A stretch of 17,337 nt of DNA from Bacteroidales bacterium (GTDB taxonomy: Bacteria > Bacteroidota > Bacteroidia > Bacteroidales > NBLH01): positions 1 to 17,337 of the forward strand of contig JALWNR010000326.1 in assembly GCA_027083715.1 (NCBI GenBank). Reading direction: 5' to 3'. Below are positions 5,705 to 17,252 of this stretch, piece after piece. Positions within the stretch are counted from its first letter, which is position 1; each line of letters opens with the position of its first letter. The notes beneath the pieces are model-generated. The model had not been told where the DNA came from. It did not search any database and worked only from the letters and a program-made list of their open reading frames with translations. The position numbers and the translations under genes are program-made.

Positions 5705-6370
5705 GTGGAAAAAGTTGCAGATAAATATAAAATATTGCTAAAACACCTCAGAACACGTGAAAATGGACCTGTTGTTGATAGTATGAAACGTTTAGGGTTA
5801 AATTATACACGTAGTTTTGGTGTTTCCTTGATCGACTTAAAAGCTTTTGCGCAAGAATATGCTGGCGAACAAGATTTGGCAATCTATCTTTGGCAAAAAG
5901 ATTTTAGAGAAACTAAAATACTTTCATTAATGATTGCCAATGCCGGACAGTTGAATGAAAAGCAAATAAACGATTATATTTCGGGAATTAATAATATTGA
6001 ACTGGCAGAACAAGCTGCTATAAACCTTTTGAGCAAATTACCCAATAGCATTGAATATGCATATCAGTGGTGTAAAAGCAAAGATAAATACACACGTGTA
6101 ACGGCGCTCATCGTTTTATCAAGAATAGCCATAGTTAGTAAATCAATAGACAAACAAAGTTTTGAGCGCTTTTTTGAGCTTTTCCCGGAAATTGCAAAAG
6201 ATGAAAATTTTCACGTAAAAAAAGCTTTAGGTAGAGCCCTACTACAAATAGGAAGGCATGAAGCCTTAACAGAAAAAGTAATAAATTTTGTAAACGAGAC
6301 AAATAAAATCAATAAAGAAACAGCTTCTTGGTTAAAAGAAGAAGTTGTTTATTTTTTGGAAAACAAATAA
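5705..6370 (+). CDS. AlkD-like DNA alkylation repair / HEAT-repeat protein
   Basis: This 221-residue all-helical protein resembles the DNA alkylation repair (AlkC/AlkD, PF08713) superfamily. Near the start, VDSMKRLGLNYTRSFGVSL is followed by the helical pair QDLAIYLWQKDFRETKILSL, the usual L-W-x-x-x-x-x-E-x-(K/R) segment of that family. HEAT-like repeats then follow (AYQWCKSKDKYTRVTALIVL; HVKKALGRALLQIGR). AlkD enzymes excise alkylated purines from DNA. I cannot confirm the DNA-cleft aromatic residues, so a non-catalytic HEAT protein remains possible. The start is GTG at 5705, since no in-frame ATG precedes and the next Met (about residue 26) would remove a helix. An exact -7 element lies just upstream. 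The Bax-inhibitor-like gene follows after 24 bases, suggesting an operon. Confidence 0.8.
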   Translation: MEKVADKYKILLKHLRTRENGPVVDSMKRLGLNYTRSFGVSLIDLKAFAQEYAGEQDLAIYLWQKDFRETKILSLMIANAGQLNEKQINDYISGINNIELAEQAAINLLSKLPNSIEYAYQWCKSKDKYTRVTALIVLSRIAIVSKSIDKQSFERFFELFPEIAKDENFHVKKALGRALLQIGRHEALTEKVINFVNETNKINKETASWLKEEVVYFLENK

Positions 6371-6394: not shown

Positions 6395-7126
6395 ATGAGA
6401 ATAGGACAATCATCAAATCCGGCATTGAGTAAGAATGCACTAAGCCGAGTTTATGAAGAGGCAGCAGGAGAAGGGATGATGAGTATTAACGGAACGGTAA
6501 ATAAAACAATTTTATCTTTACTATTGGTAATGCTTACATCATATTTTACATGGAAATCAGGATTATCAGTATGGGGTATGCTTGGTGCAATAGGTGGATT
6601 TATTGTTGCGATGATTACTGTATTTAAACCCAAATGGGCATATATTACCACTCCTGTATATGCAGTTTTTGAAGGTTTATTCCTTGGAGGTATATCTGCT
6701 TATTTCGAAGCAATATATCCGGGTATAGCATTTCAGGCTGTTATTTTAACCTTTGGGGTTGCATTTGCTATGCTTTTTGCTTATCGCTCAGGAATGATAA
6801 AAGCAACACCTAAATTTACCAAAGGAATTATTGCTGCAACAGGAGGAATAGCTATTTTTTATCTGATAAATATTGTTTTCGGATTTTTTGGTGGCGGAGT
6901 AAGTTTAGCCAATATGGGTATGCTAGGAATTGGTATTCAGCTATTTATAGTGGCTATTGCTGCATTAAACCTTATTCTTGATTTTGATATGATTGAGCGA
7001 TTATCTGCACAAGGAGCCCCAAAGGTAATGGAATGGTTTGGAGCTTTTAGCCTGACAGTTACACTAGTATGGCTTTATTTGGAAATTTTAAAACTTTTGG
7101 CTCTGTTTGCCGGAAATAGAGATTAA
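6395..7126 (+). CDS. Bax inhibitor-1 / YccA family multi-pass membrane protein
   Basis: This 243-residue protein has a polar N-terminus (SSNPALSKNALSRVYEEAAG) and then about seven hydrophobic segments, starting near ILSLLLVMLTSYFTW (about 41-55). The last is VTLVWLYLEILKLLALF, near the C-terminus. The motif VFEGLFLGGISAYFE (about 91-105), GVAFAMLFAYRSGMIKATPKF, and the acidic turn NLILDFDMIERLSAQGAP in the penultimate loop identify the bacterial BaxI_1 (PF12811) branch. Bacterial relatives act as pH-sensitive calcium leak channels or modulate membrane proteases; which applies here is unknown. Length and topology are normal. It is 24 bases behind the AlkD-like gene, with no terminator between them. 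A probable promoter for the downstream leader lies inside its last ~50 bases. Confidence 0.9.
   Translation: MRIGQSSNPALSKNALSRVYEEAAGEGMMSINGTVNKTILSLLLVMLTSYFTWKSGLSVWGMLGAIGGFIVAMITVFKPKWAYITTPVYAVFEGLFLGGISAYFEAIYPGIAFQAVILTFGVAFAMLFAYRSGMIKATPKFTKGIIAATGGIAIFYLINIVFGFFGGGVSLANMGMLGIGIQLFIVAIAALNLILDFDMIERLSAQGAPKVMEWFGAFSLTVTLVWLYLEILKLLALFAGNRD
7078..7109 (+). promoter_or_regulatory. Near-consensus promoter for the poly-Cys leader
   Basis: TTTG at 7078-7081 is followed after exactly 20 bases by TCTGTTTG (7102-7109) and then C. This matches the Bacteroidota -33/-7 pair (TTTG, 19-21 nt, TAnnTTTG) with one mismatch. Transcription would begin near 7116, about 24 bases before the short poly-cysteine ORF. 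It overlaps the 3' end of the Bax-inhibitor gene. The match is a pattern call only. Confidence 0.45.
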
Positions 7127-7139
7127 AAACCAATACATT

Positions 7140-7196
7140 ATGAATTGTTGTTGTAACATAAACTATTGTTGTTGTAAGCATTCATCAATACATTAA
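7140..7196 (+). CDS. Poly-cysteine short ORF (putative leader peptide), 18 residues
   Basis: ATG 7140 opens a frame encoding MNCCCNINYCCCKHSSIH, ending in TAA at 7194-7196. Six of 18 residues are cysteine, in two CCC runs, all encoded by TGT. The runs come from a direct repeat ATTGTTGTTGTAA in the DNA, about 21 bases apart. Cysteine is normally rare, so two triple runs in a tiny ORF are characteristic of an amino-acid-sensing leader. Translation would stall in or after the runs when charged tRNA-Cys is scarce. It lies 14 bases after the Bax-inhibitor stop, has a plausible promoter at 7078-7109, and is followed 13 bases later by a strong terminator and then a cysteine-desulfurase-like gene. 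Alternatives are a metal- or redox-binding microprotein, or a noncoding TTG-rich tract. No Shine-Dalgarno is visible; an A-rich stretch (TTAAAAACC) precedes the ATG. Confidence 0.6.
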   Translation: MNCCCNINYCCCKHSSIH

Positions 7197-7209
7197 GTAT
7201 TTATATATC

Positions 7210-7244
7210 AAGGTGGCGATATAATTATATCAGCCACCTTTTTT
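7210..7244 (+). terminator. Strong intrinsic terminator, candidate attenuator
   Basis: AAGGTGGC (7210-7217) pairs with GCCACCTT (7233-7240). The inner GATAT (7218-7222) pairs with ATATC (7227-7231) around an AATT loop, with one bulged A at 7232. This makes a 13-bp stem followed by a run of six T (7239-7244). It sits between the poly-cysteine ORF (ends 7196) and the class V PLP enzyme (starts 7286). TATATC at 7204-7209 could instead pair with GATATA at 7218-7223, a weak 6-bp competitor that would open the inner stem. It could equally be the ordinary terminator of the Bax-inhibitor gene. Confidence 0.9.
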
Positions 7245-7285
7245 GTTATTATACACTTATTATCAAACCTTTATATCATTTTTTT

Positions 7286-8779
7286 ATGAATAATACGGAA
7301 AAATATTTTGAAAAATTCAAAAAAAATGTAGTTGGAAACGATGCTACATTTGAATCGCCTTATGGCATACAAAAAATAATTTATGCCGATTGGATTGCAA
7401 GTGGACGATTGTATGGTCCGATTGAGGATAAAATAAAAAATATTTTTGGCCCATTGGTTGGAAATACACATTCCGAAGCCAGTGAAACCGGAGTAGCCAT
7501 GACTCATGCTTATCATAAAGCACAGCAAATCATTAAGAATCACGTAAATGCCGGTGAAAATGATGTTTTACTCACATTAGGTCAAGGAATGACCTCTGCA
7601 ATAAATAAATTTATGCGAATTTTAGGATTAAAAATTCCGGAACAAATAAGAGCATATATGGATGATGCCGACAAACAATTTTGTATTCCCGAAGAGTGTC
7701 GTCCGGTGGTTTTTGTTACGCATATGGAACACCACTCAAATCATACGGCGTGGTTAGAAACCATTGCCGATGTTGTTGTTATTGAACCTAACGAAAAGCT
7801 GTTGGTTGAGCCTAAAAATTTGGAAAAAGAAATAAAGAAATATAAAAACAGAAAATATTTGTACGGTTCATTTTCAGCAGCTTCAAACGTAACAGGTATT
7901 ATTCCTCCCTATTTTGAATTGGCTAAAATAATGCATCAACACGGAGGGTATGCTTTCGTTGATTTTGCAGCTTCGGCTCCATATGTTGATATAAATATGC
8001 ATCCTGAAGATCCAGAAGCTTATTTGGATGCTGTTTTCTTTTCTCCGCATAAATTTTTAGGAGGTCCCGGAAGTGCCGGAATACTGATATTTAATAAAAA
8101 ACTGTATAAAAATGAAGTTCCTGACCAACCGGGAGGTGGAACTGTTGAATGGACAGACCGTTGGGGAAGAAAACGTTACATTGATGATATTGAAACCCGT
8201 GAAGATGGAGGTACACCGGGTTTTTTGCAAACCATACGTGCAGCTTTGGCAATTCGCTTAAAAGAGCAAATAGGAACAGATAATATGGAAAAAAGAGAAA
8301 AAGAACTCTTAAAAATTGCTTTTGAAAAAATGGAAAAAATTCCGGGGCTTCATATTTTAAGCGGTGATCATAAACACAGAATAGGGGTTATTTCATTTTA
8401 TCATGAAAAAGTACATCATAATTTGATGGTAAAATTATTAAATGACCGATATGGAATACAGGTTAGGGGCGGATGTTCTTGTGCAGGAACCTATGGACAT
8501 TTTTTATTGAACATCACACAAGAAATGTCGGAAGCAATTACCAAAGAAATAACCTTAGGAGATGCAAGTCATAAACCCGGATGGGTTAGAGTTTCAGTAC
8601 ATCCAACAATGACTGATGAAGAGCTGAGTTTTGTTGTTAATGCAATTGCCAAAGTGGTTGAAAATCATGATGAATGGATAAAAGAATATTATCATGATAA
8701 ACAAACAAATGAGTGGTTTCATAAGAAGTTTCATAGAAAAACACCGGATGATTTTACCCATTGGTTTGATTTTGAATAA
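7286..8779 (+). CDS. Class V PLP-dependent aminotransferase, cysteine-desulfurase-like (SufS/CsdA superfamily)
   Basis: This 497-residue protein has the class V fold-type I layout. YADWIASGRLY (about 33-43) is the substrate-entry segment, and GNTHSEASETG and TLGQGMTSAINKF (about 97-109) form the cofactor phosphate loop. THMEHHSN (145-152) supplies the stacking histidine, and VDFAASAPY (D226) the pyridine-nitrogen contact. SPHKFLGGPGSAG gives the Schiff-base lysine K256. Near the C-terminus VRGGCSCAGTYGH carries C397 and C399 where cysteine desulfurases hold their catalytic cysteine. The family removes sulfur or selenium from cysteine or selenocysteine. At nearly 500 residues this is longer than SufS (~405), with an insert around 110-135 and an extended charged tail, so the true substrate is uncertain. 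It follows a poly-cysteine ORF and terminator, which suggests cysteine-linked control (inference). A weak alternative promoter (TTTG 7242-7245, AACCTTTA 7266-7273) overlaps the terminator tail. Confidence 0.88.
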   Translation: MNNTEKYFEKFKKNVVGNDATFESPYGIQKIIYADWIASGRLYGPIEDKIKNIFGPLVGNTHSEASETGVAMTHAYHKAQQIIKNHVNAGENDVLLTLGQGMTSAINKFMRILGLKIPEQIRAYMDDADKQFCIPEECRPVVFVTHMEHHSNHTAWLETIADVVVIEPNEKLLVEPKNLEKEIKKYKNRKYLYGSFSAASNVTGIIPPYFELAKIMHQHGGYAFVDFAASAPYVDINMHPEDPEAYLDAVFFSPHKFLGGPGSAGILIFNKKLYKNEVPDQPGGGTVEWTDRWGRKRYIDDIETREDGGTPGFLQTIRAALAIRLKEQIGTDNMEKREKELLKIAFEKMEKIPGLHILSGDHKHRIGVISFYHEKVHHNLMVKLLNDRYGIQVRGGCSCAGTYGHFLLNITQEMSEAITKEITLGDASHKPGWVRVSVHPTMTDEELSFVVNAIAKVVENHDEWIKEYYHDKQTNEWFHKKFHRKTPDDFTHWFDFE

Positions 8780-16940: not shown

Positions 16941-17252
16941 TTGATTTTGTATTATTGCTATACCAATAAACCAATTAAACTCCCTTTGAAAGATGGTAAT
17001 ATTTTAATTCATCCTGATGAGATTATTTATTTATCATCAAAAAACAAAACAGCCGCCGTATATTTAGAAAACAATGAAAAGCTCTATGTTGTTAAAAGTA
17101 TTGGAAAATTAGAAGAACTTTTGGATGAAGCTTATTTTTTCAGATGCCACTGCAAACATATTGTTAATCTGCAAAAAATCAGAAAAATCAAAAAAGGATA
17201 TACAGCTATTAAATTAAATAACGGAACGGCAATATTAGTTTCGCGCTATTGA
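16941..17252 (+). CDS. Orphan LytTR DNA-binding domain protein, possibly interrupted by TGA
   Basis: The frame encodes a LytTR-type DNA-binding domain alone, without a receiver. The segments ILIHPDEIIYLSS (about 21-33), KLYVVKSIGKLEELLDE, FFRCHCKHIVNLQKIRKIKKG, and ILVSRY fit the ten-strand fold (family consensus FFRxHRSYIVNL, SRRY). There is no ATG near the start. A TAG immediately precedes the TTG at 16941, so a TTG start or loss of the original start is required. The stop TGA (17250-17252) cuts in where LytTR domains normally continue into a final helix. The next 21 in-frame codons (17253-17315) read KKEFREALNSF and more before TAG 17316-17318, just the residues expected there. The gene is therefore either truncated and decaying, or an error or readthrough lies at the TGA. 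Its upstream spacer holds a palindromic repeat. Confidence 0.65.
   Translation: MILYYCYTNKPIKLPLKDGNILIHPDEIIYLSSKNKTAAVYLENNEKLYVVKSIGKLEELLDEAYFFRCHCKHIVNLQKIRKIKKGYTAIKLNNGTAILVSRY

Follow-up and report, generated by a model that had tools for sequence, protein, structure and literature searches.

Leader-peptide systems are known in Proteobacteria and Actinobacteria, and Firmicutes have been added to these (PMC2965389). Poly-cysteine leader open reading frames (ORFs) have been described in Actinobacteria, ahead of cys operons and of cbs in Bifidobacterium (PMC1262725), and the poly-cysteine leader work of Canestrari (2020) enters here as it is cited in PMC9094748, PMC9031893 and PMC13236596. 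In Rhodobacterales, cysS has a cysteine attenuator, the uORFC-8-2 motif, with 145 examples (PMC8632094). Within the Bacteroidota, leader-peptide attenuation has been reported upstream of amino-acid biosynthesis operons in Flavobacterium psychrophilum, with cysteine not named in section 19 (PMC9723704), and for Bacteroides thetaiotaomicron there is a report of short ORFs that recall leader peptides (PMC7366714). Here, we analyze a 17,337-nt stretch of DNA from a Bacteroidales bacterium (the window), in which a short ORF encoding two runs of three cysteines (CCC) lies between the gene for a Bax-inhibitor-1-like membrane protein (BaxI) and that for a class V pyridoxal phosphate (PLP) enzyme, and is followed by an intrinsic terminator. 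An earlier note on this DNA had read the arrangement as a cysteine-sensing attenuator of the enzyme gene, naming actinobacterial poly-cysteine leaders as a precedent, with which the literature agrees (PMC1262725). The reading that we prefer, and to which we give an about even chance of being right, is that the hairpin ends the BaxI transcript and that the ORF, located in the tail of this transcript, is a conserved mini-ORF restricted to one lineage and not part of a terminator/antiterminator attenuator of the enzyme.

The likeness to the actinobacterial leaders lies in a short ORF with runs of codons for cysteine ahead of a gene of sulfur metabolism. However, those leaders are described, in the text available, without conserved terminator hairpins, whereas the window ORF comes after another gene, stands ahead of a terminator and the gene of a class V enzyme, and is known from two species. 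With uORFC-8-2 it shares an upstream ORF of tandem cysteine codons followed by an intrinsic terminator; that motif has two prominent stems, the first of which holds the cysteine codons, whereas the window element is represented by two examples and no antiterminator was found in it.

The ORF, MNCCCNINYCCCKHSSIH, is present as the earlier note described it, with 18 residues and two CCC runs at 7140-7196 (codons ATG AAT TGT TGT TGT AAC ATA AAC TAT TGT TGT TGT AAG CAT TCA TCA ATA CAT TAA), and it begins 13 nt past the BaxI stop and ends 13 nt ahead of the hairpin. It is not a product of chance: among 20,000 dinucleotide-shuffled versions of the spacer, none had two CCC runs in one ORF and 22 had a single run. 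Across 861 kb of DNA, made up of the window and of loci related to it and holding 24,126 short ORFs, 32 of these contain a CCC at least once, and the two-CCC ORFs are solely copies of the window ORF and of its counterpart in a sister species. All six cysteine codons, in their two runs, are TGT, which is unremarkable since TGT makes up 21 of the 28 cysteine codons in the 13 window genes counted. Both runs fall within two identical ATTGTTGTTGTAA repeats spaced by 21 bp, or two helical turns. Searched against 295 genomes of the order, the peptide had matches with E ≤ 10 in 36, the best outside its own genome having E 0.07 among the matches listed; the sister species, absent from those matches, probably lies outside this sample. 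The weak matches (L120-L148, on both strands) are scattered cysteine-rich frames, some with a CCC (L128, L137), and include no short ORF with two CCC runs. A search of the window's own genome with the spacer DNA found no second copy, and a 37-base match at 86% identity in L113 was taken for chance. Elsewhere in the window, at 16941-17252, a small protein with a LytTR DNA-binding domain is encoded (PF04397, E 4e-17); LytTR proteins may be linked to direct repeats spaced by 21 bp like those in the ORF.

The hairpin that follows, claimed as a 13-bp stem with six T, was confirmed at 7210-7244 as a bulged structure, AAGGTGGC-GATAT / ATATC-(A)-GCCACCTT (7210-7240), with 8 + 5 pairs, one bulged A and the six T at 7239-7244. 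An intrinsic terminator lies between the ORF and the enzyme gene, as in an attenuator. A simple terminator scan of the window returned 12 hairpins against 9.9 expected by chance and did not include this one, probably because of the bulged A; likewise, a terminator test without bulges missed it, and the version allowing one bulge, which detects it, was used for the terminator counts at cysK below. The 164-nt spacer folds with z = −3.4 (2 of 200 shuffles fold equally well), and its main helix is the terminator itself, to which the low z is mostly due; the ORF region also folds on itself. Rfam gave no match in the window at gathering score.

Conservation was assessed among seven genomes of the window's genus (G000-G006), where G000 is the window's own genome and G005 the sister species; G002 and G004, 82% and 59% complete, yielded no enzyme orthologue. 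The spacer is matched by G005 alone, and G006 matches only the end of BaxI. Between the window and G005, fourfold-degenerate sites differ at 85 of 165 positions in the enzyme gene and 39 of 76 in BaxI (51%). Against this divergence, the ORF core (7144-7181) is identical at 37 of 38 positions and the terminator (7211-7244) at 34 of 34, although another alignment set two gaps in its T-run, and both elements therefore look constrained. A match of 37 or more occurs in 176 of the 11,335 aligned 38-nt windows (1.6%), at 25 separate places. Identity is 69-85% in six further intergenic stretches that could be aligned; two more aligned hardly or not at all. The ORF as a whole carries five changes, three of them at third codon positions; its reading frame, start codon and stop position are kept, and the ATTGTTGTTGTAA repeats are unchanged, the changes falling outside them.

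The earlier note had proposed that conserved cysteine runs in the spacers of orthologous enzyme genes would support the attenuator, and that their lack would speak against it. The latter was largely what we found. Among the regions of 200 nt or more upstream of 106 enzyme orthologues (after removal of three known duplicates), a cysteine-run ORF precedes the enzyme in two, both from one genus, and the arrangement does not recur in the remaining 104, including those of G001, G003 and G006, where the BaxI-enzyme order is kept (as it is in G005) and no such ORF was found. ORFs with three cysteines in six residues were found in four regions: the window, G005, L037 and L068; a count with other start codons led to the same result. 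The latter two were rejected as leaders, as their CCC is the C-terminus of an upstream protein of about 130 residues. A hairpin is present all the same in two of the three species that lack the ORF: G006 carries AAAGCCGG..CCGGCTTT followed by CAGTTTTTT directly after the BaxI stop, and G001 carries GGGATT..AATCCC with seven T, overlapping the BaxI stop. Because these hairpins are unrelated in sequence to that of the window and stand without a cysteine ORF, the terminator seems to belong to the end of BaxI independently of the ORF. Hairpins with T-runs were also seen by eye after the stop of more distant BaxI genes, for example in L166-L168. The ORF thus appears particular to one lineage, with most of these species predicted to have a terminator where BaxI ends. 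In G003 (L003, about 175-260), the place between BaxI and the enzyme at which the sister species carry the terminator is taken up by a long AT-rich inverted repeat that lacks a T-run.

The sequence TAnnTTTG is given as the −7 consensus for Bacteroides and Flavobacterium (PMC7366714 and PMC9723704). On the + strand of the window it does not occur between matches at 5885 and 7345, so none stands just upstream of the ORF, an absence that is compatible with a non-canonical promoter. The letters that had been put forward as the leader promoter, TTTG (7078-7081) and TCTGTTTG (7102-7109), are indeed there, but they lie inside the BaxI coding sequence, lack the TA of TAnnTTTG and are not conserved in G005, where the sequence is TTTATTTG; the promoter role is not upheld. 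A sigma-70-like match at 7250-7279 is one of 77 in the window, against 85 expected from shuffles. Within the 120 nt before the enzyme gene, TAnnTTTG was found in 38 of 109 loci overall, and in none of the window, G005, G003, G006 and G001.

A yardstick for accepting or rejecting such leader candidates was provided by cysK. Upstream regions of cysK (TIGR01139) were taken from the genus and, among the matches listed, from the order (148 of 295 genomes matched) and the phylum (115 of 296 matched; 30 loci and 40 further rows, a part of those listed), giving 222 regions, 220 of them at least 200 nt long, with two regions from some genomes and position 1501 used as the cysK start in L209 and L217. 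A leader was defined as an ATG ORF of 6-40 codons with three cysteines in six residues, and its promoter as TAnnTTTG within 40 nt upstream. Such leaders occur in 19 of the 220 regions, 11 of them followed by a terminator; seven of these 11 also have the promoter (L184, L270, L275, L285, L291, L301 and L386), and four do not (L387, L389, L400 and L404). The same counts for the other 19 amino acids gave 0 or 1 for promoter, leader and terminator together, and 0 to 4 for the terminator alone; the arrangement at cysK is therefore a minority one (7/220), yet specific to cysteine. Examples are MITKLIYSACCCTTL (G006, in the window's own genus), MKNKIQNIYCCCSN, MMLNYLTYKICCCCENIKFLHR and MTLNLNISCCCCCNVSHKNGSNDCVKM. 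The cysteine-run leaders with terminators at cysK are likely true cysteine attenuators, and through them the sensing of cysteine by ribosomes can be put to the test in a phylum from which we found few reports of attenuation by leader peptides; beside them, the window element by itself is a conserved but minor curiosity. No cysteine leaders at cysK in Bacteroidota were found in the literature by title or abstract opening, which is not proof of their absence.

Some further cysteine-rich ORFs were seen. In genomes of one family, cysteine-run leaders with no terminator detected (e.g. MKQHILSVSLFCLCCCCGLPSPII) stand at about −150 to −75 of cysK in L378, L379 and L384 and at −219 to −156 in L380, those of L378 and L379 being nearly identical. 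Upstream of cysD, the 50 regions scanned, one of them offset by a single base, held three weak cysteine-rich ORFs, none with TAnnTTTG. A second cysteine-run ORF is present in G000 and G005 (L188:1118-1202; L194, reverse strand), ending in KLCPYCCCL or KLCPYCCCI. It lies where a gene ends, some 300 nt ahead of cysS, and was dropped as a cysS leader because in G000 a TAACTTTG box (TAnnTTTG), seen by eye, stands between this ORF and cysS.

The window element and the cysK leaders share a cysteine-run ORF, a terminator and a gene, at similar distances to the gene; they differ in the remaining parts. For ten of the 11 terminator-bearing cysK leaders (L184, L270, L275, L285, L291, L301, L386, L387, L389 and L404), the window and G005, we determined the best duplex between the terminator 5′ arm and the RNA left free beside a ribosome on the first cysteine codon of the run, and compared it with 300 single-base shuffles of the free part. 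An antiterminator was detected in nine of the ten cysK leaders (−9.9 to −19.2 kcal/mol, p ≤ 0.04), the tenth, L301, giving p 0.127 (−9.0), and in seven of the ten the 40 nt ahead of the ORF contain TAnnTTTG, whereas the window has neither. By the same duplex test there is no antiterminator in the window (−6.7 kcal/mol, p 0.51) or in G005 (−6.7, p 0.60). The weak alternative hairpin suggested before fails accordingly, its best duplex being no better than chance and its ATATC being lost in G005. From the ORF stop to the stem there are 13 nt in the window and 11 nt in G005, compared with 19-42 nt in the ten cysK leaders; from the stem to the gene there are 45 and 39 nt, compared with 33-105 nt. 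With a footprint of the usual size, a ribosome that has reached the ORF stop codon should extend almost, but not quite, to the stem and, judged from these positions, a ribosome anywhere on the ORF should neither release an antiterminator nor mask the stem. Given this geometry and the lack of an antiterminator duplex, no ribosome position obviously alters the hairpin. The attenuator that had been proposed is supported in part, by the ORF, the terminator, their conservation in G005, the type of enzyme and the occurrence of cysK leaders in the phylum; as an antiterminator, a promoter and recurrence next to orthologous genes were looked for and not found, we do not file the element as a cysteine attenuator.

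In the reading that we prefer, the hairpin would terminate the BaxI transcript, and the mini-ORF in the tail of this mRNA would probably be translated by ribosomes re-initiating after BaxI. Either the short two-CCC peptide so made, or a ribosome stalled on it, would then act where the BaxI mRNA ends, the peptide perhaps as a micro-peptide that binds thiols or metals, the ribosome perhaps through stalling that depends on cysteine. Several observations weigh against this. The ORF is anything but random, its composition is that of cysteine leaders, and the next gene looks like one for a cysteine-using enzyme. G003 has no T-run hairpin after BaxI. With no TAnnTTTG before the enzyme in five genus members, and with just 11 nt from the T-run to the enzyme start codon in G006, transcription of the enzyme by readthrough of the terminator is plausible. 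With the two sequences available, what is conserved may be the peptide, the RNA or the DNA, and we know of no free-standing micro-peptide of this kind in the phylum. Readthrough is central to an intercistronic, cysteine-responsive control that we consider rather unlikely, in which pausing on the TGT runs alters readthrough into the enzyme without a paired antiterminator, for example through ribosome-polymerase coupling. It would account for finding a cysteine-run ORF, a terminator and a cysteine-desulfurase-like gene together, for their conservation in G005 and for an enzyme gene without a canonical promoter; the stem-to-gene distances resemble those of cysK leaders, and cysteine leaders with the full set of parts do occur in the phylum. 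However, neither species has an antiterminator, the stem would be out of reach of a stalled or terminating ribosome, no TAnnTTTG precedes the ORF, and 104 of the 106 enzyme regions do without it. A related and unlikely possibility is that the ORF was added to a pre-existing terminator between BaxI and the enzyme, making a half-built attenuator, early in its evolution, with antiterminator-free, cysteine-dependent readthrough.

The conserved level could also be non-coding, with the identical ATTGTTGTTGTAA repeats acting as a tandem binding site or as part of an RNA hairpin and the cysteine codons as their by-product. The repeats match each other exactly, they stayed unchanged in G005 while the ORF changed around them, and the region folds on itself; yet the frame, start codon and stop position were all kept, and the repeat pair occurs nowhere else in the 861 kb, so that we think this distinctly improbable. 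Retention of neutral sequence by chance would fit an element known from two species, in a region where six other intergenic stretches reach 69-85% identity and 25 places are as conserved as the ORF core. A single change in the 38-nt core, set against fourfold differences of 85/165 and 39/76, and the equal conservation of 176 of 11,335 windows (1.6%) make it very improbable. The features of the locus are listed in Table 1.

Table 1. Features around the poly-cysteine ORF, in window coordinates.
Feature	Coordinates	Strand	Basis
BaxI_1 (Bax-inhibitor-1-like) membrane protein gene, upstream neighbor	6395..7126	+	Pfam PF12811, E 7e-77
Promoter-like letters TTTG / TCTGTTTG inside BaxI coding sequence; judged not a promoter	7078..7109	+	No TA of TAnnTTTG; not kept in G005
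Short ORF MNCCCNINYCCCKHSSIH, two CCC runs, all TGT	7140..7196	+	Sequence; G005 copy MHCCCNINYCCCKHSSVH
Intrinsic terminator, 8 + 5 bp stem, one bulge, six T	7210..7244	+	Fold; 34/34 bases of 7211-7244 the same in G005
Block ATCAAACCTTTATATCA near enzyme start, candidate 5′ untranslated region or promoter element	7262..7278	+	Identical in G005
SufS-like class V PLP enzyme of 497 aa (resembling cysteine desulfurases / selenocysteine lyases)	7286..8779	+	PF00266, E 1.4e-45; SufS-type relatives

The assignment of the downstream gene, from 7286, to a class V PLP enzyme resembling cysteine desulfurases is borne out by the PF00266 match, the cysteine loop and a CxC motif. The nearest relatives of the 497-residue protein are cysteine desulfurases of the SufS type (8d8s, E 1e-30). 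Its catalytic-cysteine loop, RGGCSCAG, aligns with RAGHHCAQ of the SufS type and its PLP-lysine loop is SPHK, both loops aligning with those of 8d8s and 5j8q, as in group II (SufS/CsdA-type) enzymes. The CxC motif is present in 107 of 107 enzyme loci and SPHKFLGG or SPHKFIGG in 103 of them (three duplicates removed). The score against TIGR01979, 137.8 bits, falls far below the cut-off of 475.1 for the curated SufS family, and the enzyme counts as a distinct relative rather than as SufS itself. Among the 120 relatives listed, those named by their source are called selenocysteine lyase, selenocysteine lyase/cysteine desulfurase or class V aminotransferase. In L037 and L068, the gene just upstream of the enzyme encodes the protein of about 130 residues mentioned above, with the C-terminus SDYCCCP; one of the two copies is weakly similar to PF02579 (E 0.017, below the cut-off), and one may speculate that its cysteine tail serves as a sulfur acceptor.

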